From NCBI GenBank assembly GCA_020853095.1, contig JADYZN010000023.1:1-42091 (forward strand): 42,091 nt of DNA. Reading direction: 5' to 3'. The position numbers were made by a program, and so were the translations under genes. The notes under the pieces were generated by a model that made no database searches, had not been told where the DNA came from, and saw only the letters and a list, made by a program, of their open reading frames with translations. Below, one piece after another: positions 7,117 through 35,706 of the stretch; the first letter of the stretch is position 1, and each line of letters opens with the position of its first letter. This stretch comes from Phycisphaerales bacterium (GTDB lineage: Bacteria; Planctomycetota; Phycisphaerae; Tepidisphaerales; Tepidisphaeraceae).

Positions 7117-8379
7117 TCATTGTTTCGAGCCGGCCGGCAGCGCGGCCAGATGGTCGTAGGCCCGGCGGCCGCGTTCGATCTGCCGGCGGGCGGCTTCCAG
7201 CAGTGGCTGTCGCAATGCCGGCGCGGCGTTCCATTGCGATTCGATCGCCCGGCGCAATCGTCCGGCCAGATCGGGCTGGTCGGCCGGAACGATCAGGCAT
7301 CCATCGGGAAACTGACCCGCGATGCCGCGCATTTTGGCCGTGTAATAATCCGATGCGACGACCCCCACCACCGGCACACCCTGCGACAGCGCGAAAATGG
7401 CCGCGTGATAACTGCCGGTCATCACCACCCGACAACATCCAACCCGCTCCATCACCTCCTGGGGGGTGTCGGGGATCGACCAGTTGCCCGTGTCCATGAG
7501 TTGGCCGATGGATGTCACATCCGAATCCTCATCCTGCAACGCGATCGGCAGCGGGATCAGCGGGCCATTGAGTTGGTTGGACAGGTCGGCCAGGACCATC
7601 TTGAAAACGTGCAGTTGCCCGGCCAGCGCGCCGGCATAACCGGCCACCCGCAGATTCACCCCGATTCCATTGGCCGGGGCATCGGTTCGACCCAGATAGA
7701 CCGCTTCGATGGCATCATCGCCGGTGGTGTCGATGTAGTCCACCTTCACGCCCAGCTCATTGATCAAAGGGCGGCTGGTGACCGCCTCGCGCAAGGTCAG
7801 AAGATGAAGATGGTTCATCACCTCCGCGCCAAAGGACCGCAAAGCCGGATTATGCAGAGGACCCACCCCCTGCCCCACCATCGCGGTCCGTTTGTTCATC
7901 GACTGCGCCATCGCCAGCGTCCCCAGCACCATGCGGGCTTGATGTTCAAACGGGTCGGTGAGGTATCCGCCGCCGGTGCCGATGACCAGGTCCGCGTCGC
8001 GCACGGCCGACAGGTATGCCCGCATCGGCGCATCATCCACGCCCCGCGCACCCAACAACGGCCCCAGGATGGTTTGAATGAACAAAGCCCCCCGCCGGCG
8101 GGCGTTTTCGATCCGATGATAAAGGCGATCGTGGATCATCACCGGCAGCGGGCAACCTTCAAGGATGGAGGTCAGCGTCCATTGGCGCGCTCCTTCGCAC
8201 CACAACGGCTGTGCCTGCGGAACCAGCCGTCGAAGTCGCCGGGCATCGGCCGTCAGGCACTGGATCCGCGCATCGGGAAAACGTTCGGCCAGCCGTCGGG
8301 CGGCGACCTGCAACATGGCGACATCCCCCATGTTGCGAAGCGAATACGAAGAATTGTCCAGCAGGATTCGACGGATCAT
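7117..8379 (-). CDS. Polysaccharide pyruvyl transferase family protein
   Basis: This protein of about 420 residues would add ketal-linked pyruvate to a sugar of a surface polysaccharide. The N-terminus MIRRILLDNSSYSLRNMGDV matches the family opening, in which N-x-GD is followed by a hydrophobic helix. The C-terminal GSYHAAIFALSQGVPVVGV carries the conserved histidine and the G-x-P loop. The start ATG (8377-8379) overlaps the stop TGA of the PP-loop gene in the sequence ATGA, so the two are translationally coupled. A longer frame back to 8559 would run inside that gene and is rejected. It is followed on the same strand by the TolC/adaptor pair. The sugar substrate cannot be told; family members also include the peptidoglycan-linked CsaB group. 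Confidence 0.85.
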   Translation of the reverse strand: MIRRILLDNSSYSLRNMGDVAMLQVAARRLAERFPDARIQCLTADARRLRRLVPQAQPLWCEGARQWTLTSILEGCPLPVMIHDRLYHRIENARRRGALFIQTILGPLLGARGVDDAPMRAYLSAVRDADLVIGTGGGYLTDPFEHQARMVLGTLAMAQSMNKRTAMVGQGVGPLHNPALRSFGAEVMNHLHLLTLREAVTSRPLINELGVKVDYIDTTGDDAIEAVYLGRTDAPANGIGVNLRVAGYAGALAGQLHVFKMVLADLSNQLNGPLIPLPIALQDEDSDVTSIGQLMDTGNWSIPDTPQEVMERVGCCRVVMTGSYHAAIFALSQGVPVVGVVASDYYTAKMRGIAGQFPDGCLIVPADQPDLAGRLRRAIESQWNAAPALRQPLLEAARRQIERGRRAYDHLAALPAGSKQ

Positions 8380-9632
8380 GGCTTTTGTGCGCCCAGGGAT
8401 GCGGGAGGCTTGGCCGTCGGCCGGGGTGATGGGGAGCGGCCCAGAAGACGTTTCAACCGCGTGCGCAGGGCGGTTTTTTCGCGGAGTTTGCGAAACCACA
8501 TGGGACGACTGATTTCCTTCAGGTGATCGTCCAACGTAGCCTGCAGAGCGATGGTCCACGATCCTTCGGTGCCGTGGATTTTGGCCGCCTGAAGAATTTC
8601 CCGGATGGAAGCGGCCGCGTTGGGAGCCATGTCACGCTTATGCCAGGTGCGGATGAACTGGTCATCGGCATCGTGGGCAAAACATTCGGGCAGTTTCGCC
8701 CCCACGGCGCGGAACAACAGCAGCGACCGCATGCACTTGTAGCAGACGCCGCAATTTTGGCTCAGGTCCTGGCCTTCAAAGCAGATGCGCACGTTTCGCC
8801 GGCCGGCGGGCCATTGGGCGATGGCTTCGATTTTCTGGTGTCGCGCGAACGCCACGGCATCGTGTTCGATGGAAAACGAAGAGCCGCCCAACCGCCAATC
8901 CAGCAGAGGTGTGGACCCCCAGGGATTGGTGATTTTGCTGTAGGGGCTGCCGCTGGCGATCAGTCCGCCGCGAAATCCCTTCTGAAACAGCAGCAGCACC
9001 GCCGCCAGCGCGCTGCCGTGCATGTGTTCCCAGTTTTCCTCCGGCGTGATGATCCGCCAGTTGGTCGCCACGCGGGCCAGCGGCACGCCGAGGTCTTCGG
9101 TGATGGCCCGCGCCCTGGCCGATGCGCGGACAAACGTCTGCGTCTGGTTCAGCGGAATGTCGAATCCGTGAACCATGACGGCCGCCCCGATGGGCCGGGC
9201 CAGCCGGCCGCACAGTTTTTTGCAGTGCCGATAGAGCGTGAACGAGGCATCCGCCCCGCCGGAGAACGCCGAGACGTACCGTTCGGGCACTGGAAGCTCG
9301 CCTTCGGCCTCCCGGTCGGCGGTGATGGGGACCGGGGCGTACAGTTCGGGGCGATAATGATGCCAGGCATCCTGAAATTCGGTGAGATTGCGCAACAAGG
9401 AGGGAGAAACCCGGCCGTGAACGTGGATCGGCGCGCGTTTTTTCATCGCCTTGAACAACGTCCCCACCAGGAATGAATCCATCGCGTCGGTGATGAAGGG
9501 CACAAAGTCGTTGGCGACGGCGTATTGCAACGTCAACGGCGCATCACCGGCGCATTCGATCCGGGCGGAATACATGGTGGTATCCGGGCCGCGGGCCGGT
9601 TCGATCGGGCGTATATATAAGGTCTGATCCAT
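8376..9632 (-). CDS. QueC-like PP-loop (adenylating) protein with four-cysteine metal site
   Basis: This 418-residue protein has a PP-loop ATP-pyrophosphatase signature, SGGADAS, at residues 124-130, with one residue between the Asp and Ser compared with SGGLDS in QueC. The cysteines C284, C294, C297 and C300 (in QNCGVCYKC) closely resemble the QueC zinc site. Such proteins adenylate a carboxyl or carbonyl group. I have seen the NCG-x-C-x2-C pattern described in uncharacterised proteins of polysaccharide loci, but I cannot name a function. Residues 1-110 are an N-terminal domain I do not recognise. ATG 9632 is preferred because the longer frame starts only with TTG at 9677. It is coupled by ATGA to the pyruvyl transferase, which implies a shared glycan-modification task. 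Confidence 0.75.
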   Translation of the reverse strand: MDQTLYIRPIEPARGPDTTMYSARIECAGDAPLTLQYAVANDFVPFITDAMDSFLVGTLFKAMKKRAPIHVHGRVSPSLLRNLTEFQDAWHHYRPELYAPVPITADREAEGELPVPERYVSAFSGGADASFTLYRHCKKLCGRLARPIGAAVMVHGFDIPLNQTQTFVRASARARAITEDLGVPLARVATNWRIITPEENWEHMHGSALAAVLLLFQKGFRGGLIASGSPYSKITNPWGSTPLLDWRLGGSSFSIEHDAVAFARHQKIEAIAQWPAGRRNVRICFEGQDLSQNCGVCYKCMRSLLLFRAVGAKLPECFAHDADDQFIRTWHKRDMAPNAAASIREILQAAKIHGTEGSWTIALQATLDDHLKEISRPMWFRKLREKTALRTRLKRLLGRSPSPRPTAKPPASLGAQKP

Positions 9633-19887: not shown

Positions 19888-21282
19888 TTATGCGAGGACT
19901 TCGGTTGGCTTTTGGATCTCCTTTCGGGCAAATTCGATTTCCTGGCGATGTTGGTGGTTTTTTTGTCTTAAATCCCACTCCTGCGCCACGCGGACGGCCA
20001 TGCCGAAGCCGATCCATGACCAGAACCAGATTCCGGCTTGCGGGCCTTCGAGGTAGACGTCAAAGCTCGCATTGACGTTGAACGCGATCCAGTAGGCCAG
20101 CACCCACGCATCCACCCTGGCCCACCATTCCTGGCCGGATTTGCGCGCCCGCCAGTATCCGCGCAACATCCCGGCCGCGAAAACCCCCTGCAACAACAAC
20201 CACAGCGCAAATCCCGGCACGCCCGATCGCGCCAGGATGGTCATGTGCGCGCTGTGCGGACTGCGCAGCGGCGGGCCTTCCTCGGTCCCCAGAAACCCAT
20301 CGTCCAGCGCCAGGTTCACGCCATACCCTTTGCCGGTCCAGAAATATTTTCCGCCGAAGGTGTAGTCGATGATCCCGCCCCACCAGTTCAGCCGCCATTC
20401 ACGGGTGTCGTCCAGGTCGCCCCGGTTGGTGTCCTCAAAAATGCTCGTCACGTTGGAGATCAACTGCTGGGCGGACACCTCGCGGCGGTTCATCTCGATT
20501 TTCAGGTCGATGAAGATCGCGATGCAGATCCCCATCAGCACCAGCGCCGCCGCCTTGCCCCAATGACCGGCGCTGCGCGGCCGCAACGCCATCACCACGC
20601 CCGCGGCCGCGAAGATCGACAGCATCCCGCCCCGGTTGGCGGAGGCCGCCATCACCACGCCGGCCGACCAGATGATCCACCACCACCAGTCGCGCATCAG
20701 CCGGTTCAGTCCTTTCATTTTCGGCCGCAAAACCTGGTGAAGGCCCAGCGCCATGAACGACGCCGCCCCGGCCAGATGCACGGCCGTGTCGCCCGGTTTC
20801 AGATACAACAACGGCTCATTGGTTCCCGGCACGCTGGGGATCGCACCCTTGAGGATCCGTTGCAGCAGATATCCCACCGGCAGCCACAACAGCACGGCCG
20901 GCAGCAACCGGCCGTACAGCTTCACCGCCTTCACCACCCACCCGCAATGCAGCAGGCAGATCGCGGTCATCATCGCGAAGACCCCGTAACCCCACAACGT
21001 CGCATCGCGCAGCGACAAAATGCCATATTGCTTCAGATAGGGAAGCGTGCAGAGCAGCCCATCGACCGCCAGCATGACCCAGACCCAGACCACCGCCTGA
21101 TTTTTGATCAGTTGGATGCCGCCGCCGATCAGCACCGCCGCCAATCCCAGCGTCAATACGATCTCCCCCACGTACACTGGTCCGGCCCCAAGATAGGCGA
21201 AGCCCTTGTCCAGCGCCAGATACCCCCCCAGCAACACCGCCAGGGCGCGCAACCAGAACTTTTGAAACTCGATTCCTCGCAT
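19888..21282 (-). CDS. O-antigen ligase / Wzy-like polymerase membrane protein
   Basis: This 464-residue inner-membrane protein has about ten hydrophobic segments and one long periplasmic loop (roughly residues 265-365). That loop contains the Wzy_C-type signature around RSPHSAHMTILARSGVPGF, in which S/P-H is followed by a G-x-x-G turn. Such proteins join lipid-linked repeats into a polymer or ligate glycans to an acceptor. Within an operon holding a Wzx-like flippase and Wzc-like kinase, polymerase is the better guess. Its ATG shares bases with the stop of the upstream GT4 (TAATG), so it is translationally coupled. The last 30 residues are charged and cytoplasmic. Confidence 0.85.
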   Translation of the reverse strand: MRGIEFQKFWLRALAVLLGGYLALDKGFAYLGAGPVYVGEIVLTLGLAAVLIGGGIQLIKNQAVVWVWVMLAVDGLLCTLPYLKQYGILSLRDATLWGYGVFAMMTAICLLHCGWVVKAVKLYGRLLPAVLLWLPVGYLLQRILKGAIPSVPGTNEPLLYLKPGDTAVHLAGAASFMALGLHQVLRPKMKGLNRLMRDWWWWIIWSAGVVMAASANRGGMLSIFAAAGVVMALRPRSAGHWGKAAALVLMGICIAIFIDLKIEMNRREVSAQQLISNVTSIFEDTNRGDLDDTREWRLNWWGGIIDYTFGGKYFWTGKGYGVNLALDDGFLGTEEGPPLRSPHSAHMTILARSGVPGFALWLLLQGVFAAGMLRGYWRARKSGQEWWARVDAWVLAYWIAFNVNASFDVYLEGPQAGIWFWSWIGFGMAVRVAQEWDLRQKNHQHRQEIEFARKEIQKPTEVLA

Positions 21283-22505
21283 TATTCCGCCGCGCTCAGA
21301 TTCAATTCGCGCAGATAGGATTCCACCATCGACTCGCGCGTGAAAAAACGTTGAAAATGTTCACGGCCGCGACGACCCAGCTCCGCACGCATGGCCGCGT
21401 CATCCAGCACCGGCCGAAGAATCTGCATTGACGCATTCTCATCGTTCGGGTGCAGCAGCACGCCCCCCTGCAATATCGCGTGAACCTCCGGCACGCCTCC
21501 CGATGGCAGCGCCGCCGAAGGCACCCCCGCCCGCGCCGATTCGAGCAAGGCCAGCCCGAACGATTCCACCAGTGAATAATGGATGTACAGGTCGCACATC
21601 GCCAGCAACGCCGGCACATCCCCGCGTTGGCCGAGCAGTTTCACGCGGTGTTCGATGCCCAGTTGGTGCGCCCGCCGGCGCAGCGCTGAACGGTCCGGCC
21701 CCTCGCCCACCAGCACCAGTTTGGCCCGTTCATATTCCCCGGCGATCCGGGCGAACAGATCGACCAGCGCCATCTGGTTTTTTCTGCGTTCCAGCGAACC
21801 GACCATCAATAAAACCAGGTCCTGATCCGACAATCCCAGCGAACGGCGATCGACCGCCGCCGGCCGGCCATTGTCCGCCAGGCCGTTCCAGATCACCACC
21901 GACCGCTTTGGCCGGATGTCGCGCGCCTGTTCCAGCGATTTGCGGGCGGAATTGGAAACGTAAATGACCCGGTCCACCGCCTGGAAGACGTCCACTTCCT
22001 GTTGCTCGATGCGTTTGGCGGTTTTGGGATCGTTCAACTGGCCGTTGTCCAGCGCCTCGCGGGCGTGGCTGTAGGCGAAATGGCAGATCATCGAGACGTC
22101 AAAGTCGCGCCCCAATTGCGAACGAACCTCCAATGCCGCCCGCGCGCTCAACGGGCAGGTCGCCACGATGTGCGTCACCGGCCGGGATTTGGCATGGCGT
22201 AAAAAACTCTGCTTCAGGGCAACAAAATGCCAGTGGCGATACCAGCGCAGCGCCCAGTTGCGATTGATCCAATCCAACCCCAGCCGGCGGATGGCAAAAA
22301 CCCCTTTCCAATGTTTCCCACCGGAAAAGGGGGTAATCAGGGGTGACAAAAGCCCGCGTTCGGCCAGTCCATCCAACAGCACCCGCGTGTGGGTTTGCAC
22401 GCCGGTGTTGCCAGCCGGGCGCATCATGGTCAAAACGACCACGGCGGCCTTGTCGGGCGATGAAATCTTCGGCGGGGGCATGGTCAATGTCGCCTGGCTG
22501 GTCAT
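21282..22505 (-). CDS. GT4-family glycosyltransferase
   Basis: This 407-residue GT-B enzyme has an N-terminal acceptor half opening with VVVLTMMRPAGNTGVQTHTR and a donor half with VGSLERRKNQMALVDLFA, VGEGPDRSALRRRA and the E-x7-E pair in ESFGLALLE. It should add a sugar to the undecaprenyl-linked precursor. It is coupled on both sides: its ATG overlaps the stop of the APH-like kinase gene as ATGA, and its stop overlaps the Wzy start as TAATG. It is clearly distinct from the second GT4 downstream, so at least two sugars are added after the priming one. Confidence 0.93.
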   Translation of the reverse strand: MTSQATLTMPPPKISSPDKAAVVVLTMMRPAGNTGVQTHTRVLLDGLAERGLLSPLITPFSGGKHWKGVFAIRRLGLDWINRNWALRWYRHWHFVALKQSFLRHAKSRPVTHIVATCPLSARAALEVRSQLGRDFDVSMICHFAYSHAREALDNGQLNDPKTAKRIEQQEVDVFQAVDRVIYVSNSARKSLEQARDIRPKRSVVIWNGLADNGRPAAVDRRSLGLSDQDLVLLMVGSLERRKNQMALVDLFARIAGEYERAKLVLVGEGPDRSALRRRAHQLGIEHRVKLLGQRGDVPALLAMCDLYIHYSLVESFGLALLESARAGVPSAALPSGGVPEVHAILQGGVLLHPNDENASMQILRPVLDDAAMRAELGRRGREHFQRFFTRESMVESYLRELNLSAAE

Positions 22506-23872
22506 GATCCAACCCCCGAATTTTGCAATTCACGGGATGGCGATTGCTGTTCCATCTCCGGCCATCGGCCCATGGGAGCCAATTGGGCCAAAAGATCTCT
22601 GAACCAGATGACCATCGGATCGGCCGGGTCATAATCTTCACCCAGCAACCGCGCGAGCATGTCCAGCAGATAAACGGTCGCCAGGGTGCGGGCCTGGCGC
22701 GGGGTGAATCCCTGCGGTTGCGAGGCCGCCATTTCCAGCAGATGGCGAAATCCCTGTCGGCTGTCCCAGCGGTAAAACAGGTATCCGCAAAAGAGGAGGT
22801 GGTGGAACTGATCGATCAGGGGCAGTCCGTCCACCTGACCATATTCCCAGTCGTACGCGAAAATCCGACCCTCGTTGGCGCGTAAATTCCACGGCCCGAA
22901 ATCGCCGTGGACGATGGTTGAAGGGATGTCCATCCGTTCCAGCATCGGCAAAACATCCGCCAGCGCCTGGTCCAGATCCTCGTGGGGGACCGTCAGCCGG
23001 TTCAACCGTGAAGGCAACTCGCCAACCATGGCGGTCTGTGAGGCGATTTTGCGTTGAGGTCGCTGGAGCGAGGCGAGGAAATTCAGGTGGGCCTCCGACA
23101 GTTTCACCTTGCTGGATCGGCCGTGCAGCGGGCTTTGGACCATCAGCAGCGATCCCTGCACCTCGCCGAAGTACAACAACCGCGGGGCGTCCGCGTTGAC
23201 CTCGGCCAGGGCCTTGAGCAACCGCGATTCGTGTTCAAGCAGGGCGCGCACCGATGGTTCGCGGGCGAGTTTGGCAAAGCCGAGCACCTGTCCCTGGGGG
23301 TCGAAGATCATGATCGAGGGTTTGCGGTTGCGCGATGGTTCGGGGGCGCCGGCGGAGATCGCCATGCGGAACGGACGGCCGTCGAAAAGGCCGCTCAATA
23401 TCGTGAACAGTTCGGGGGCTTTGCGCTGGGCGATGCAGACCTGGTCGTGATACCAGCCGGGCAGGTGGATGCGCGCGGCGATCCGGGCGGCGGCGTGTTT
23501 GAATCGCGACAGGGGTTTGGAAGGCTTGTACAGCGCGAATCCATCGGAAGCGACGGCGGCATTGTCCAGCGGGATGAACCAGCGGGCATGTTTGAAACTT
23601 GGAATCACCGCGAACCGGCGGACGTACTCGAAGCCAAGCTGCCGGATGGACGATTCGGTCAGTTTCGGGCAGTTGATCGCCACCAGGCCGGGCGCGGCAG
23701 ACAGGTCGGGCAGTTGGTTCAACTCGCGCCCGCAGATCACCGGGATGGGGTCGCCCGCATCGCCGGGCTGATCGGCGATGGCCTGATTGAGCCACGCGGG
23801 GCCTTGTTTGCAATCAAAGGCCGCGCGGGGCGCGAACAGGTAGGCCCAGGTCAGTGCGGGCGGGAGGGTCAC
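22502..23872 (-). CDS. APH/choline-kinase-fold phosphotransferase with unknown N-terminal domain
   Basis: Residues 185-440 of this 456-residue protein form a kinase-like fold. A glycine-poor N-lobe (SIMIFDPQGQVLGFAKLARE, likely ATP lysine K201) is followed by the catalytic loop VHGDFGPWNL (321-330) and the DWE metal motif (341-343) before GLPLIDQFHHLL. The substrate is probably a small alcohol or sugar. Residues 1-180 do not resemble a domain I know; they hold Arg/His-rich stretches and a CGRELN segment. Translation starts at GTG 23872 and overlaps the upstream stop as GTGA, with AAAGGCG before it. Position inside the polysaccharide operon suggests it phosphorylates a sugar or modifies the polymer; resistance is unlikely. 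Confidence 0.78.
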   Translation of the reverse strand: MTLPPALTWAYLFAPRAAFDCKQGPAWLNQAIADQPGDAGDPIPVICGRELNQLPDLSAAPGLVAINCPKLTESSIRQLGFEYVRRFAVIPSFKHARWFIPLDNAAVASDGFALYKPSKPLSRFKHAAARIAARIHLPGWYHDQVCIAQRKAPELFTILSGLFDGRPFRMAISAGAPEPSRNRKPSIMIFDPQGQVLGFAKLAREPSVRALLEHESRLLKALAEVNADAPRLLYFGEVQGSLLMVQSPLHGRSSKVKLSEAHLNFLASLQRPQRKIASQTAMVGELPSRLNRLTVPHEDLDQALADVLPMLERMDIPSTIVHGDFGPWNLRANEGRIFAYDWEYGQVDGLPLIDQFHHLLFCGYLFYRWDSRQGFRHLLEMAASQPQGFTPRQARTLATVYLLDMLARLLGEDYDPADPMVIWFRDLLAQLAPMGRWPEMEQQSPSRELQNSGVGS

Positions 23873-26586
23873 GTGGCGCCTTTCAGGCCAAATCGGCGGG
23901 CCGTGCGGCAGGAGAGATGGTCGAGGATGATTTTTTCCACGTCCGAGACGACCTTGGCGGCCGGCTGGGTGGCATCGACGACGTGGCCGTTGCGCATCGG
24001 TTCGACCAGCGAACGGTACGCGCCGCGCTGGCGGGCGGTCTCCTCGAAGGGGACTTCCTTTTTACGCGCCTGCACCACTTCGGGCGGGGCATCCAGCAGG
24101 ATGATGACATCCGGTTTGACGGCCACTTTCCAGACCAGTTTCAAAAGCCAGATGGGGCCTTTGTAGCGATAGCGTTTGGGGTCGGCGATGGAATCGACGA
24201 AATAACGGTGGTTGAGCGCCATGCGCGACCGCGCCAAATCGGGCCAGACGGTGAAGTAATAACCGACGCTGTAATAGATGGCCCAGTAGACCGCCTTGGC
24301 ATAGGCCGCCGGCAGCGAGCGCGGCGGCAGGCCATGCGGTTGTCCCGGCTTGATGTGGCGCATGCCAAGCAAACCGGGCGCGAAGGTGCGGGTGGAAATC
24401 CGGCCGCCAAACGCGGGGGCCAGGTCCTGCTCGACGGCCTCCTGCACGGTGGATTTTCCGACGCCGTCGGGGCCGAGCAGCACGACGTGCAGGCCGCTGT
24501 GGGGGCGGATCCAGCGGCGGATTTTTCGGCCCAACTCGCCCAGGCGGGTGGAAAACCGCGAACGCCTCCGCATGAGCATTTCGGTGCGCAGACGCGGCAG
24601 GTTGCTGATGACCTGGCTCCAGTCGCCGGTGTCGGCGGCCTCGGTGATCAGTTTGCCGCTGCCGTTCCAGAAGCGATCGACGTGCCGGCGGCAACCCTGG
24701 GGGTTGCTGCGATACAGGTCGCTGAGCCGGCGGGCCTGATCGGGGTCCAGGGCGTTCTTGGCGACTTTCTTGACCAGATAGCAGCCGAATTCCAAGTCGG
24801 CGCTGGGGACCCACAGCGAATTGTGCTGCTGTCGGCTGGAGAGGACTTCCTCGCCGAAATAGAACGTGCGGTCCTCGCGGTTGTAGTCGGCGTGAACGTC
24901 GATGCGCACGAACCAGGGTTTGCCGGATTGGTCCTGCGAGGCCATCACGATGTAATTGGAGTCGTGCCACTGGACGAGGTCCGCCCCGATGAAATCGCGA
25001 TTGGCGGCGATCAGCGCGGCCAGCCGTCGCGGCAGATAATTCGCGGGGATCACGCAGTCGATGTCGCCCGATGGCGCCTGTTGGCCGATGCCTTCGTAGC
25101 TGTCGAGGATGCAGTACGGAACGCCGTGGCGCTCGAGCAGTTCAAAAAACCGCAACACCGCGACGGCGGCGGTTGGTGCGGTCGGATGCTCGCCGGGATC
25201 GGCGGGCGCTGAACCGTTGGTGGTGTGTTCCATCATATCTCCTTGGGGCGTTGACTTGGTGGATTCATCGGCCAATTCGGCCGACGGGTTGTTTTCATGG
25301 CGATGACGCCGATAGGTCAGCCAGAAATGGCAGTTGACCATCAACGCCGTCGCCGTCAGGCCGACAAATGTACCATTGACCCCCATCCAGTGCAGCAGCG
25401 CCCAACCGATCCCCACGGTGAACAGGGCGGTGTAGACGTAGGCCATGAAGATGTGGCGGGTCTGTCGCCGGGCCGCCAAAGCCGCATAGGTGATGTGCGA
25501 GACGTAGGCCGGGAAGGCGCACATCGCGTAGAGCATCAGCATCGGCGCATCATCGGCATACTGTTTGCCGTAGGCCAGCCGCAGCAGCGGGCCGGCGAAC
25601 AAGGCCACCAGGCCGCAATAACCGGCCAGCATCGGCGTCACCAGCAGGAACGCCCAGCGGTACTGGCGGTTCATCGCCTCCGGGCCGCCGTGGGCCAGCG
25701 CCTTGGAAAAACGAATCGGCAGGATGGTGTCCAGGAACGAAATCAGCACCCTCGTCGGTCCGAAGATCACCGCGGCGGCCTTCAGCATGGCGGTGGCGGA
25801 CGTGCCGAACATGGCGGCGGCGATGAACAAATACCATTGGATCGAGGAGAGCCACTGCAACAGTTCGGCTCCCAGCAGCCATTTGCCGAAGTTCCAGTTT
25901 TCCCAGAGGGATGACCATTTCCAATCCCGCGCGAGGCTGTGACGAATCTGCCACAGCCCCAGCAGCGCGGCGGTCGCCGAGGTGGCGGCAAGGATGTACA
26001 AGGCGCGTTGCGCGGTTAATTGCTCGGCATGCCAGAGCAGGCCGATGAGCAGGGCCTGGCCGCCATAACTTAGCAGATCGTTGAAAAACGCCGCCGCGGT
26101 GCGCCCTTCGGTATAGAGCACCCGGCGGGTGAATTCCTGTGATTGCCAGGCGATGATGCAGGGGGCGAGCGCGGCCAGCAATCCGGCGACCGACCACCCC
26201 AGCGACCAGCCCAATCCGGCGGCCATCAGCGTCAACAGCGCTGCGACGATGCAAAACAAAAGTTGTCCGGCCCCGGCCGAAGTCGTGTATCGACGGTAAT
26301 CCGCTCCGCCCCGCGTCGACGCCAGCACGTTGTGTGGCTGGGTGATCAACGTCGCCTGCGCGAGGTTGGCAAACAGCAACCCCGAATAGATCAGCGTGAA
26401 CTCGCCGAATTCACCGCGCGACAGGCCGCGCGCCACCAGCACCATGGTGACGAAGTTGCTGCCGCTGAGCAGCATCTGATCGGCCAGCGCCCAGGCGCCG
26501 CGGCGGAGCTTACGGGCAACCGCTGCGAGGGGTTTGGTCTGTTGCTGGCTGATGACCGCGGACATGGCGCAAGTGGTTCCTTTCAT
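23869..26586 (-). CDS. Wzx-like flippase fused in frame to a nucleotidyltransferase / thymidylate-kinase-like protein
   Basis: The open frame is 905 residues. Residues 1 to about 430 are a polysaccharide flippase of the PST/MATE-like type: charged N-terminal helix, about 12-14 membrane segments, and a GPLLRLAYGKQYADDAPML-like segment. After a hydrophilic linker, residues 475-690 look like a nucleotidyltransferase-fold protein (SGDIDCVI at 506-513), and 698-905 are a thymidylate-kinase-like P-loop domain (GPDGVGKST at 705-713; ILLDAPPEVVQARK lid region). A full ribosome site with ATG lies inside the linker, so the second half may also be made alone (residues 452-905). The gene starts 13 bases after the sugar transferase stop, and its end overlaps the APH-like kinase start. 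An upstream Met at 26565 is an alternative start. Confidence 0.85.
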   Translation of the reverse strand: MKGTTCAMSAVISQQQTKPLAAVARKLRRGAWALADQMLLSGSNFVTMVLVARGLSRGEFGEFTLIYSGLLFANLAQATLITQPHNVLASTRGGADYRRYTTSAGAGQLLFCIVAALLTLMAAGLGWSLGWSVAGLLAALAPCIIAWQSQEFTRRVLYTEGRTAAAFFNDLLSYGGQALLIGLLWHAEQLTAQRALYILAATSATAALLGLWQIRHSLARDWKWSSLWENWNFGKWLLGAELLQWLSSIQWYLFIAAAMFGTSATAMLKAAAVIFGPTRVLISFLDTILPIRFSKALAHGGPEAMNRQYRWAFLLVTPMLAGYCGLVALFAGPLLRLAYGKQYADDAPMLMLYAMCAFPAYVSHITYAALAARRQTRHIFMAYVYTALFTVGIGWALLHWMGVNGTFVGLTATALMVNCHFWLTYRRHRHENNPSAELADESTKSTPQGDMMEHTTNGSAPADPGEHPTAPTAAVAVLRFFELLERHGVPYCILDSYEGIGQQAPSGDIDCVIPANYLPRRLAALIAANRDFIGADLVQWHDSNYIVMASQDQSGKPWFVRIDVHADYNREDRTFYFGEEVLSSRQQHNSLWVPSADLEFGCYLVKKVAKNALDPDQARRLSDLYRSNPQGCRRHVDRFWNGSGKLITEAADTGDWSQVISNLPRLRTEMLMRRRSRFSTRLGELGRKIRRWIRPHSGLHVVLLGPDGVGKSTVQEAVEQDLAPAFGGRISTRTFAPGLLGMRHIKPGQPHGLPPRSLPAAYAKAVYWAIYYSVGYYFTVWPDLARSRMALNHRYFVDSIADPKRYRYKGPIWLLKLVWKVAVKPDVIILLDAPPEVVQARKKEVPFEETARQRGAYRSLVEPMRNGHVVDATQPAAKVVSDVEKIILDHLSCRTARRFGLKGAT
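25233..25244 (-). promoter_or_regulatory. Internal ribosome site and ATG inside the flippase-kinase frame
   Basis: On the minus strand the linker codes AAGGAG (25239-25244), five bases, then ATG (25231-25233); a second ATG directly precedes it. This is as good a Shine-Dalgarno start as any in the window, it lies exactly at the domain junction, and it is in the same frame as the flippase. Confidence 0.75.
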
Positions 26587-26599
26587 CCGTTAAAAAAGT

Positions 26600-27814
26600 T
26601 CAGCGGGCGCCTTTGCGGAGCAGAATGGCCGGGACGGTCCGCAGCAGCAGGTTCAGGTCGCGCAGAAGGTTTCGGCGTTTGAGATAACGGATGTCCATGC
26701 GCATCCATTCGGTGAAGGTGACGCGCGATCGCCCCTCCACCTGCCAGATGCAAGTCAGGCCGGGGGTGACATCGAGCCGCCGTTGCTGCCAGACATCGCA
26801 TCCATCCGCCTCATCGCAGGGCAGCGGGCGCGGGCCGACCAGCGACATATCGCCGACAAACACGTTCCACAACTGCGGCAGCTCATCGAGGCTGGTGGTG
26901 CGTAAAATCCGCCCGATGCGGGTGATGCGCGGGTCGTTGGTCAGTTTGAACGCCGGGCCATCCTGCTCGCTGAACTGGCGAAGGGCTTTTTTCCGCGCCT
27001 CGGCGTCGACGACCATGGTGCGGAATTTGTAAATCATGAACGGCCGGCCGCCCAGCCCGGCGCGGGCCTGTTTGAAGATGACCGGCCCCTTGCTGGTCAG
27101 CTTGATGATCAGCGCGATGGCCAGCAGCAGGGGCGACAGCAGCAACAACCCCATCCCGGCGCACAGCATGTCCATCATCCGTTTCCACCAGGGGAGCGGC
27201 TTGACGAAGATTCGTTCCAAGGGGGGCGGGCTGACAATCGACGCCGTCAATCCATCCTTCACGCCATCGACAAGGAACGATAGCAGGTCGTGCCGTCGCA
27301 TCGCGGGGGTTGCGGTGGGGGTTGATACGGTGGATGACACGTTGGGTGTCGCGGCGGATGTCTCGCGGGCCGTCGCGCCCATCTGCCGGCTGACGTGTTG
27401 AAGATCGGGTCCGACGCCGGCGGAACCGGCCGGCCGCTCGCCCGCTGGCGCGGTGGGATATCCGTGAACGCTGAACCGGCATTTGCCGTTGCGCGACTCG
27501 AGTCGATGGGCCACATCCGCCGCGAAGCACCACGCGCCGGCCTGGTTGGTATCGGGCAGAAAGACGCACAGGTAACGGCGGTTCAGCCAGCCGACCTCGT
27601 CTGTGAAGCGGATGCGCTTCAGCACCTCGCGGGCCAGCCGCATCGCGCTGCGATGCCGATGGCGGACGCGGAACAGCACCACCGCGAATTCGTGGCCGTT
27701 GCGCTCCGACCGGGCTCGCTCGCGCTGAAGCATCTGGCCGACATAAGCGGCCGGCAAAATGCTGTGCAACGTGCGCGGCGCGGCGGCCGCTTTCGCATGA
27801 TTCCCGACACTCAT
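26600..27814 (-). CDS. Polyprenyl-phosphate sugar transferase with GGDEF-like N-terminal domain
   Basis: This 404-residue protein starts at ATG 27814 behind AAGGGAA; longer frames to 27892 lack such a site. Residues 205-404 are a bacterial sugar transferase (WbaP/PglC type). They have one membrane or re-entrant helix (about 218-240), KQARAG, IYKFRTM, SLDELPQLWNVF, GDMSLVGPRP and PGLTCIWQV, and transfer a sugar phosphate to undecaprenyl phosphate to start each repeat. Residues 20-120 resemble a degenerate GGDEF fold (RERARSERNGHEFAVVLFRV; FTDEVGWLNRRYLCVFLPDT) with no GG(D/E)EF loop. It replaces the usual four membrane helices of WbaP. A linker of about 80 residues joins the parts. It may sense a nucleotide or protein partner. 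Confidence 0.9.
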   Translation of the reverse strand: MSVGNHAKAAAAPRTLHSILPAAYVGQMLQRERARSERNGHEFAVVLFRVRHRHRSAMRLAREVLKRIRFTDEVGWLNRRYLCVFLPDTNQAGAWCFAADVAHRLESRNGKCRFSVHGYPTAPAGERPAGSAGVGPDLQHVSRQMGATARETSAATPNVSSTVSTPTATPAMRRHDLLSFLVDGVKDGLTASIVSPPPLERIFVKPLPWWKRMMDMLCAGMGLLLLSPLLLAIALIIKLTSKGPVIFKQARAGLGGRPFMIYKFRTMVVDAEARKKALRQFSEQDGPAFKLTNDPRITRIGRILRTTSLDELPQLWNVFVGDMSLVGPRPLPCDEADGCDVWQQRRLDVTPGLTCIWQVEGRSRVTFTEWMRMDIRYLKRRNLLRDLNLLLRTVPAILLRKGAR

Positions 27815-27888
27815 AACTTCCCTTGGCTTCACCCGATTGCCAACGAACAACTCGTCCATTCTACCACGAATCACTTCATTACCTCGTT

Positions 27889-30087
27889 TCACCGTTCACT
27901 GCCGACCAGCAGACCGCGCTTGGCCGGGATTTGATCCTCCTCCGGCGCTGTGTACGAATAGCTCGAACCGTAATACGCCTGGCGGTCGCGCGTACGGGGC
28001 AGGTCGTTGACCACCACGCCGAGGATCGAAGCGCCCACGCTCAAGAGGCTGTTGTGGGCGTCCTCGAACATCCGGCGGGTGGATTTTTGCGCCCGCAGCA
28101 CCATCAGCGTGGCATCGCAGACCGACCCGAGGATGCGGGCATCGGCGAACGGCAGCACCGGCGGCGAATCCAGCAAAATGCGGTCGTATCGGCCGGCCAG
28201 TTCCTTGAGCAACGACGCGAATTTTTTGCTGTTGAGCACCTCGGCCGGATTTCCCGGAACCGGCCCGCACGCCAGAACATCCAGTCGTTCCACGCGGGTG
28301 GATTGGATGGCCCGATCCTGCGATTCATCGCCCGACAGCAGATGCGTCAGGCCGCGTTCCTCATCAAGGCCGAAGATGCGGGCGATGGATGGCTTGCGCA
28401 AATCGGCGTCGATCAACAACACGCGATCACCGGCCTGGGCCATGGTGATGGCGAGATTGGCCGCCAGCGTGCTCTTGCCTTCACCCTGCGTGGGCGAGGT
28501 CAGCAGCAGCGTCCGGGCGCGGGATCGGTTCAGGCCGAAATAGACGGCCGTTCGGACGTTGCGATAGGCCTCGGCGGCGTCCGACATCGGATCCAGATGG
28601 GTTTTCTGGCCCCGTTCGGAACTGGTGAGCCGGCCCTGGATGTGCGGCACCGCGCACAACACCGGCACGCCGGCCACCGTTCGCAGCTCTTCGCCACTTT
28701 GAATCCGTCCGTCCGCCCAGCTCTGCAAAAAGGCGGCCGCGATCCCCAGCATCAATCCCAGCACCAGCGACATCCCCACCAGCATCGCCCGGCGCGGCCG
28801 TACCGGCGTGGGTTCGGCCCGCGCCGGCTCCAACACCGTCACGTTGAGCGATGGAGCGGTGCGCATCATCCGCGCATCCTTGATCCGCCCTTCCAATGCC
28901 TCGTTCATGCGCTGGGCGCGCTGATAATCGGCTTCGAGCACCGCGTATTCGCTGGCTTTGGAATTCAGGTCCGTGGCCTCTTTGCGCTGGGCATCGAAGG
29001 TGGCGCGAATCGACGATTCCTTCTGCTGGGCGACTTCCAGGTCCTGTCGCGCCGCTTCGAGATATCCCTGCGCGAAACGCTGGTTGTGATCGACCAAGCG
29101 GGCCTTGAGTTTTTCCACCAGGACTTTCAACGTCTGGACCTGCGGGTGGTTGGGGGCGAATTGACGCTGCATCGCCGCCATGCGGATTTCGGCGTTGTTC
29201 AAGTCGGTGCGAAGCTGCTCGTATTCGCGGTCGTCGCCAAACTTGCCGCGACGACGGTCGGCATCGACCAGGAGTTGCAACTTGGCCGGGTCGCCGGTCA
29301 TCTGCCGGGCGGCCTCGTAGGCGGCACGGGCGTCCATGGTCTGCAATTCGGCGGCCGTCAGTGCCTCGGACAACCGCGCCAGCCGCTGCACGATGATGTT
29401 GCCCCGGTCATCCTGGAACGACAGCGTGCCGTTGGCCAGCTTGAACGCGATCATCGCCTTGAGCTTTTCCTGCAACTCGGTTTCACGCTGCTGTTTTTCG
29501 CCCTCCAGAACCTTCAACACTTCGCTGGCGTTGGCGTGTTTCTGTTTGGACTGATACTCCATGTAGGATTGAACGACCGCATCCACGATGGCGGTGGCTT
29601 CTTCCGGATGGGCCGACTCGAACGCGACTTCGATCAGATCGTCCTTTTTGCCGACTTCGGCCGTCAGGTTTGATTTGAGCAATCGCAACCGGTCGGTCGA
29701 GGAAGCGAGGTCGACCGAATCCTTGACGGTGGAGGCCTCCAGCGCCGTCATGAGAATGGGCGTGGACCGCAACACCTCGCACTGGGTGTCGAGATAATTT
29801 TTGGAGCGGATTGTTTCGGGGCTGTCGGCGTTGAACGATTGTTCGGCCGGCTCGATGAACAACCGCGAGCTGCTGCGATAGATCGGGGTGGCGGTGACGG
29901 CGTACAACAGCGCCCCGACAAAGCAGAGCACCATGACGCACAAAACCGTCCATCGGCGCGACCAGACCCTGGCCCATGCGTTGACGCCTCCTTCGGCGTC
30001 CACGCCCATCGCCGGCACGCTGGGAATCTCCAGCCGGCCCAGCGTTTCGCGCTCAACTCTCATCACTGACTGCTTCCCGTCCACCAT
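27889..30087 (-). CDS. Wzc-like polysaccharide co-polymerase and tyrosine autokinase
   Basis: This 732-residue protein controls polymer length. The first membrane helix is at about 46-66, then a Wzz-type periplasmic part with long coiled coils, a second helix near 442-465 (MLVGMSLVLGLMLGIAAAFL), and a cytoplasmic BY-kinase. Walker A is SPTQGEGKST (531-540), Walker A' LLIDADLRKP (about 557-566) and Walker B ILLDSPP (637-643). A terminal tyrosine cluster, QAYYGSSYSYT (Y705, Y706, Y710, Y712), is the likely autophosphorylation tail, with fewer residues than in E. coli Wzc. ATG 30087 follows AGGAG by five bases. No wza or phosphatase gene is nearby. It is the first biosynthetic gene of the operon. 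Confidence 0.94.
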   Translation of the reverse strand: MVDGKQSVMRVERETLGRLEIPSVPAMGVDAEGGVNAWARVWSRRWTVLCVMVLCFVGALLYAVTATPIYRSSSRLFIEPAEQSFNADSPETIRSKNYLDTQCEVLRSTPILMTALEASTVKDSVDLASSTDRLRLLKSNLTAEVGKKDDLIEVAFESAHPEEATAIVDAVVQSYMEYQSKQKHANASEVLKVLEGEKQQRETELQEKLKAMIAFKLANGTLSFQDDRGNIIVQRLARLSEALTAAELQTMDARAAYEAARQMTGDPAKLQLLVDADRRRGKFGDDREYEQLRTDLNNAEIRMAAMQRQFAPNHPQVQTLKVLVEKLKARLVDHNQRFAQGYLEAARQDLEVAQQKESSIRATFDAQRKEATDLNSKASEYAVLEADYQRAQRMNEALEGRIKDARMMRTAPSLNVTVLEPARAEPTPVRPRRAMLVGMSLVLGLMLGIAAAFLQSWADGRIQSGEELRTVAGVPVLCAVPHIQGRLTSSERGQKTHLDPMSDAAEAYRNVRTAVYFGLNRSRARTLLLTSPTQGEGKSTLAANLAITMAQAGDRVLLIDADLRKPSIARIFGLDEERGLTHLLSGDESQDRAIQSTRVERLDVLACGPVPGNPAEVLNSKKFASLLKELAGRYDRILLDSPPVLPFADARILGSVCDATLMVLRAQKSTRRMFEDAHNSLLSVGASILGVVVNDLPRTRDRQAYYGSSYSYTAPEEDQIPAKRGLLVGSER

Positions 30088-34892: not shown

Positions 34893-35636
34893 TTAATTAT
34901 GGTGGTGTCGATGTCGTCCGAGCAGGCCGATCAGGGCACAGCACAGCGGCAGAGCCATCGTCGCGGGTTCCGGCACCGCGGTCACCTCAATGCTGACGTT
35001 GCCTGGCGGAATGCCCAGAACAAATTCATCCAATGAATCGACACGGCCAATTCCCCCTGTCGTTGCAAACTCGCGGAAACTGACCACCAGCGTCGGGGCA
35101 AAGCCATTGATCGCCCCTTGCAATGCGGTCAAAGCCTCCGGAGAAAATGACAGTGATTGCGGCCCGGTCATTCCATCGGTGAATGTCGCCGATCCGACAA
35201 TTGTGTGTGCGCCGCCGTCGCCGGAAAGTCCCGCGAATACATCACGGTTGGCGAAATTCAACTCGGTTTCATAAGTCTTGAACAGCCGGACCTCGGAAAC
35301 GCCTGTTTCACCGGCCTCCGCAAAATCGCTGGCGACGGAGTAATGCAGCGTCGCCGAGACGATGGTAAGTCCGGACAGACTCGAAAAAGCGCTCAGCGGA
35401 AACTGAATGATCGGACGGTCCCAGGAGGGATCCAATCCCCAATCGCCGGCCGGTCCGACCCCATGGTTGCCATAACCGATCGACTCGGCTGTCGCCGATC
35501 CTGGTGAGATAACCCGCAAATTCTGCGCGCCGCCGACAACATCCGGCACGGATATCGCGATGGCGCGGGCACTGTTCGAGGCGACCAATCCCGTCAGAAC
35601 CGCCGCCAGAACACCGGCGCCAACAAAAACCCTCAT
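34893..35636 (-). CDS. PEP-CTERM sorted secreted protein
   Basis: This 247-residue protein has an N-terminal signal peptide (MRVFVGAGVLAAVLTGLVAS, cleavage near NSARA) and a C-terminal sorting signal at 221-247: VPEPATMAL, a hydrophobic stretch and the basic tail RHRHHHN. The mature part is Ser/Gly/Thr-rich beta, of the kind often found in DUF-like extracellular domains (WDRPIIQFPLSAFSSLSG), which recalls DNRLRE-type modules. ATG 35636 has AGGAGG eight bases before it. An exosortase elsewhere must process it. It lies 70 bases downstream of a second PEP-CTERM gene on the same strand. Confidence 0.88.
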   Translation of the reverse strand: MRVFVGAGVLAAVLTGLVASNSARAIAISVPDVVGGAQNLRVISPGSATAESIGYGNHGVGPAGDWGLDPSWDRPIIQFPLSAFSSLSGLTIVSATLHYSVASDFAEAGETGVSEVRLFKTYETELNFANRDVFAGLSGDGGAHTIVGSATFTDGMTGPQSLSFSPEALTALQGAINGFAPTLVVSFREFATTGGIGRVDSLDEFVLGIPPGNVSIEVTAVPEPATMALPLCCALIGLLGRHRHHHN

Positions 35637-35706
35637 TTGCCACCCTCCTGCAAGACAACGTGACCCAACCAACGGCTTTTACCTCAGCGCGGCCAATGAT
35701 ACCCCA

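Follow-up and report, generated by a model that had tools for sequence, protein, structure and literature searches.

The operon described here shares its gene set and gene order with Wzx/Wzy-dependent exopolysaccharide operons, which encode a Wzc-like protein, an initiating sugar transferase, a flippase, glycosyltransferases, and a Wzy-like polymerase. Mycobacterial MviN is a flippase of the MurJ type. It holds a flippase-like membrane protein and a kinase-like domain in one chain, and this second domain is a pseudokinase with the Ser/Thr-kinase fold that recruits FhaA and has no ATP binding (PMC12599244). One paper discusses translational coupling where starts and stops overlap, as well as adjacent genes whose homologs are fused in another genome (PMC3711429). 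A study in Campylobacter mapped in-frame starts inside genes and cautioned that products of proteolysis can be mistaken for theirs (PMC11955535). Our literature search turned up nothing relevant on fusions between a flippase and a thymidylate-kinase-like protein.

We analyzed a stretch of 42,091 nucleotides from a Phycisphaerales bacterium (contig JADYZN010000023.1), referred to as the window. Its minus strand carries, in order, a Wzc-like chain-length regulator/tyrosine autokinase (27889-30087; Wzz, TIGR01007), a bacterial sugar transferase that is the initiating enzyme (26600-27892; PF02397), the frame that joins flippase and kinase (23869-26586), an APH-type phosphotransferase (22502-23872), and, by domain search, a GT4 glycosyltransferase (21282-22505) and a Wzy_C/O-antigen ligase-like polymerase (19888-21282). 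In relatives, the genes likewise follow one another as wzc, sugar transferase, flippase, kinase, APH, GT4, wzy wherever they were detected, up to the ends of the contigs. Upstream of the operon, 34893-35672 (minus strand) has a weak match (26 bits against a cut-off of 80) to a flocculation-associated PEP-CTERM protein. The explanation that we favor, and hold to be probable, is an ordinary fusion of two co-translated genes of such an operon in which the start of the kinase has been retained and is probably active.

The joined frame runs from 26586 to 23869 for 905 codons with no in-frame stop, which bears out the claim of the initial annotation that one frame connects a Wzx-like flippase to a kinase-like protein. 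Its first ATG (26586) is not conserved in the congener G009, and its second methionine, at 26565 (MSAVIS...), is the residue to which the first methionines of the relatives align (MFAVIS in G009, MSVATL in G010, and MSVVIE in G011). Because only the latter position is conserved, the real start is probably the ATG at 26565, giving a product of 898 aa and not 905. Since no stop separates the two domains, translation of the flippase yields the fusion, and the full-length protein must be produced wherever this frame is translated. RNA folding of the join revealed no special structure (z of −0.2 and 0.9).

The flippase domain (25288-26565) lies in an exopolysaccharide operon together with the initiating transferase, Wzy, and Wzc, and it reaches the Pfam gathering score of PF13440 (24.1 bits against a cut-off of 23). 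Hydropathy and the positive-inside rule, a simple method, predict 12 transmembrane segments, and the loop charges place both ends inside. Because this predicted topology leaves the C-terminus in the cytoplasm, the kinase part would be on the cytoplasmic side of the membrane, where ATP is.

According to alignment and profiles, the kinase part (23872-25233; 454 aa) consists of a nucleotidyltransferase-like N-terminal half with a DxD pair and a thymidylate-kinase-like C-terminal half with a P-loop (GPDGVGKST). The P-loop GxDGxGK(S/T)T, the DxD pair (D57 and D59), and an RKxE motif are invariant in an alignment of nine sequences. A profile matched thymidylate kinases of the PDB at E = 9e-9, with the C-terminal half aligning to them. 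Identity as a dTMP kinase was rejected because the kinase part missed both curated cut-offs (23.9 vs. 27 bits for PF02223 and 27.6 vs. 83.25 bits for TIGR00041), and the DR motif of dTMP kinases reads HRY in the window and close relatives and DR in Leisingera, Agrobacterium, and G119. For the N-terminal half, PF14907 (NTP_transf_5) matched none of nine members of the kinase family at E ≤ 1, and comparison with this fold by hhalign reached a probability of 46 to 74% over only 47 to 48 columns. Assignment to NTP_transf_5 was therefore rejected, as Pfam was negative and the profile comparison suggestive at most. A fold search placed CCA-adding and Pol mu/lambda enzymes among its weak matches; this counts as a hint only because the AlphaFold models, built from three-row alignments, were poor (mean pLDDT of 44 and 40). 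Of the label that had been given to this part, "kinase" is thus fair in view of the Walker A motif and the thymidylate-kinase-like half, and "nucleotidyltransferase" is suggestive only. In G514 (L065:2896-5947), about 1.7 kb lies between the piece that holds the nucleotidyltransferase-like half and the piece that holds the kinase half, an arrangement which suggests that the halves are separable modules. In G015 (L039:3991-4633), the C-terminal half is split over two frames and no N-terminal half was found, as in a broken gene or an assembly error. Among viral contigs, we found one distant relative of the kinase and no fusion.

Comparison with relatives suggests how the two genes came to be joined. 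G009 (JADLBV010000086.1, Phycisphaerales MAG SJ194), a separate assembly from the same genus, has the same fusion, with 89% protein and 85% nucleotide identity to the window and no gaps over 900 codons. Between these two genomes, dN/dS is about 0.11 overall, 0.14 in the flippase, 0.06 in the kinase, and about 0.38 in the linker before the internal ATG, where 8 of 11 changed codons are non-synonymous; the linker is therefore under looser constraint than both domains, as expected of a tether. G010, from another genus of the same family, is fused as well, and its join lacks any ATG. Four relatives of the same class have a stop before or at the start of the kinase, and their genes are separate and touch or overlap: G011 has an ATGA overlap with AAGGAG upstream, G119 has TGATGA at the boundary, G177 has an overlap of 11 bases, and G013 has TGATGA followed by an ATG in the same frame. 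Whether a stop divides the domains in relatives, a point raised by the initial annotation, thus has a split answer: it does in these four genomes and does not in G009 and G010. The proposal that two genes merged by loss of a stop stands insofar as this is a true fusion of genes that are separate in relatives; a small indel is just as likely as plain stop loss because only one of the four unfused relatives has flippase and kinase in the same frame. Since the unfused genes touch or overlap, flippase and kinase most likely overlapped and were coupled before they fused.

Concatenating five proteins of the operon gave a tree in which G010 groups with G011, G013, and G022 (99/96); no fusion is known in any of these three, the locus of G022 being cut by a contig end. 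Constraining all fused genomes to group together was disfavored (p-AU of 0.02 with seven taxa and 0.19 with five). Two independent fusions are likely, as G010 is placed among unfused relatives in this operon-wide tree, and a single fusion with later re-splitting is a possible alternative history. Single-gene trees of the kinase and of the flippase did not resolve the order of the genera, and resolution is poor in the deep branches of the trees.

At the join, the initial annotation had reported AAGGAG, five bases, and an in-frame ATG, and a product of 454 residues. Every one of these positions is exactly right: on the minus strand, AAGGAG (25244-25239) is followed by ATATG and then ATG (25233-25231), all in frame and exactly within the linker between the domains, and translation from 25233 gives the expected length. 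A tandem in-frame ATG (25236-25234) is spaced just two bases from AAGGAG, and the ATGA that it begins holds a TGA in the +1 frame, resembling the gene overlaps of unfused relatives; in G009, GTC takes the place of this ATG. We scored matches to the Shine-Dalgarno consensus in 176 ORFs predicted from about 240 kb of the genome that contains the window; no 16S gene, from which the anti-Shine-Dalgarno sequence would be read, was found in this MAG. Matches of at least six bases in range preceded 16 of the 176 gene beginnings (9%) and 6 of 1,094 in-frame internal ATGs (0.5%), two of these six being the tandem pair at the join, a site that had been chosen from the whole window before this count. By these counts, Shine-Dalgarno use in this organism is modest, and an internal ATG equipped like the one at the join is rare. 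Two further internal ATGs with strong matches (AGGAGGT and GGAGGT), at 7452 and 7818 on the minus strand, lie in the ORF 7117-8559 and may indicate a wrong gene call.

The join reads GAAGGAGAAGTCATG in G009 and CAAGGAGATATGATG in the window. AAGGAG-N5-ATG is present in both; 8 of the 21 bases preceding the ATG differ and none of these lies within AAGGAG (hypergeometric p = 0.03, a weak value that rests on two genomes, all that are known for the genus). The motif could also be preserved by protein constraint or recent ancestry. Because the ribosome-binding site and ATG are retained and conserved, a second product is plausible, and a free kinase of 454 residues is likely made from this start. 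Merging of two genes and production of two proteins, which had been put forward as alternatives, are compatible with each other.

The neighboring gene gives a better clue to function than the flippase. The APH-type gene overlaps the kinase by four bases in the window, and of the 14 loci compared, 12 have such a gene close to the kinase (window 22502-23872, L037-L045, and L063-L067), mostly directly downstream; G015 and G485 are the loci with none detected near the kinase. Free-standing kinases also have an APH gene nearby in plasmid exopolysaccharide clusters of Leisingera and Agrobacterium, and kinase and APH share one frame in G119 and G013. In G013 (L043:6088-8859, minus strand), that frame is bridged by a palindromic repeat-like insert ending in GGGAGGGACG-ATG, making it a second fused join with an internal ribosome-binding site and start. 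Given the proximity at 12 of 14 loci and these fusions in two other lineages, gene arrangement suggests a functional unit in which the partner of the kinase is more likely APH than the flippase. The most likely role would be to give the repeat unit or its precursor a phosphate-type modification ahead of flipping. Kinase and APH are an uncharacterized pair that recurs in planctomycete and alphaproteobacterial exopolysaccharide clusters, and this context indicates a likely pathway step for it.

Several other readings of the locus must be weighed. That the fusion is a sequencing indel or a misassembly of two real genes would agree with the separate genes and differing frames of most relatives outside the genus, and with the +1 frame of the window, which ends in a TGA overlapping the first ATG of the tandem pair as in G011. 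We regard this as highly improbable and reject it: G009, independently assembled and about 15% divergent in nucleotides, has the same open frame without the +1-frame TGA, and G010, a third genome from another genus, is also fused. Somewhat unlikely, in our judgment, is that only the fusion is made and that the Shine-Dalgarno-like site and ATG are a functionless relic in a linker that is simply diverging. Internal starts may be suppressed by elongating ribosomes, which would fit a relic, as do the weak constraint on the linker and the lack of an ATG at the join of G010, from which it follows that not every fused form needs a free kinase. Against a relic, AAGGAG and the ATG have kept their correct spacing while neighboring bases changed, and so strong a match occurs at very few internal ATGs.

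Tethering could instead be the point of the fusion, with a flippase-bound kinase modifying the lipid-linked precursor at the mouth of the channel and so linking export to phosphorylation or nucleotidyl transfer. The apparent double origin of the fusion, the predicted cytoplasmic C-terminus of the flippase, and the joining of kinase and APH in other genomes, a Rosetta-stone indication that they work as a unit, speak for this idea. We think it unlikely, as the kinase is free in most relatives, in some of them distant from any flippase, and has no known substrate. Quite unlikely is that two products are made in a set ratio, a tethered kinase modifying the lipid-linked repeat unit and a free one partnering APH; if true, phosphorylation of the precursor and its export would be coupled. 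Under the favored explanation, an ordinary fusion with a retained kinase start, flippase and kinase would have been adjacent, overlapping, and translationally coupled genes in the ancestor, and a stop loss or an indel, small in either case, at the 3′ end of the flippase gene would have made them one frame. Ribosomes on the flippase would then run on into the kinase, producing a membrane protein of about 898 residues with the kinase on its cytoplasmic face. The ribosome-binding site and ATG, left in place, would probably still start some free kinase, which may act with the APH-type phosphotransferase on the precursor before flipping.

The relatives would thus present a gene fusion in mid-process, as separate coupled genes, as a fusion with the start kept, and as a fusion with the start lost. 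The unfused relatives have start and stop within a few bases of each other, like the coupled overlapping pairs described previously (PMC3711429), whereas in the window the boundary stop is lost and the pair is one frame. From Wzx/Wzy operons in general, the locus differs by the cytoplasmic kinase-like domain on its flippase and by the kinase-APH pair. The C-terminal half of the kinase aligns with thymidylate kinases (PF02223, TIGR00041) but scores below their cut-offs, has HR for DR, and follows an added N-terminal half of 240 residues. Like MviN, the fusion belongs to a cell-envelope pathway and unites in a single polypeptide a membrane protein and, at the C-terminus, a kinase-like domain; unlike MviN, its kinase domain has an unrelated fold, P-loop and thymidylate-kinase-like, with an intact Walker A motif and an internal start codon.
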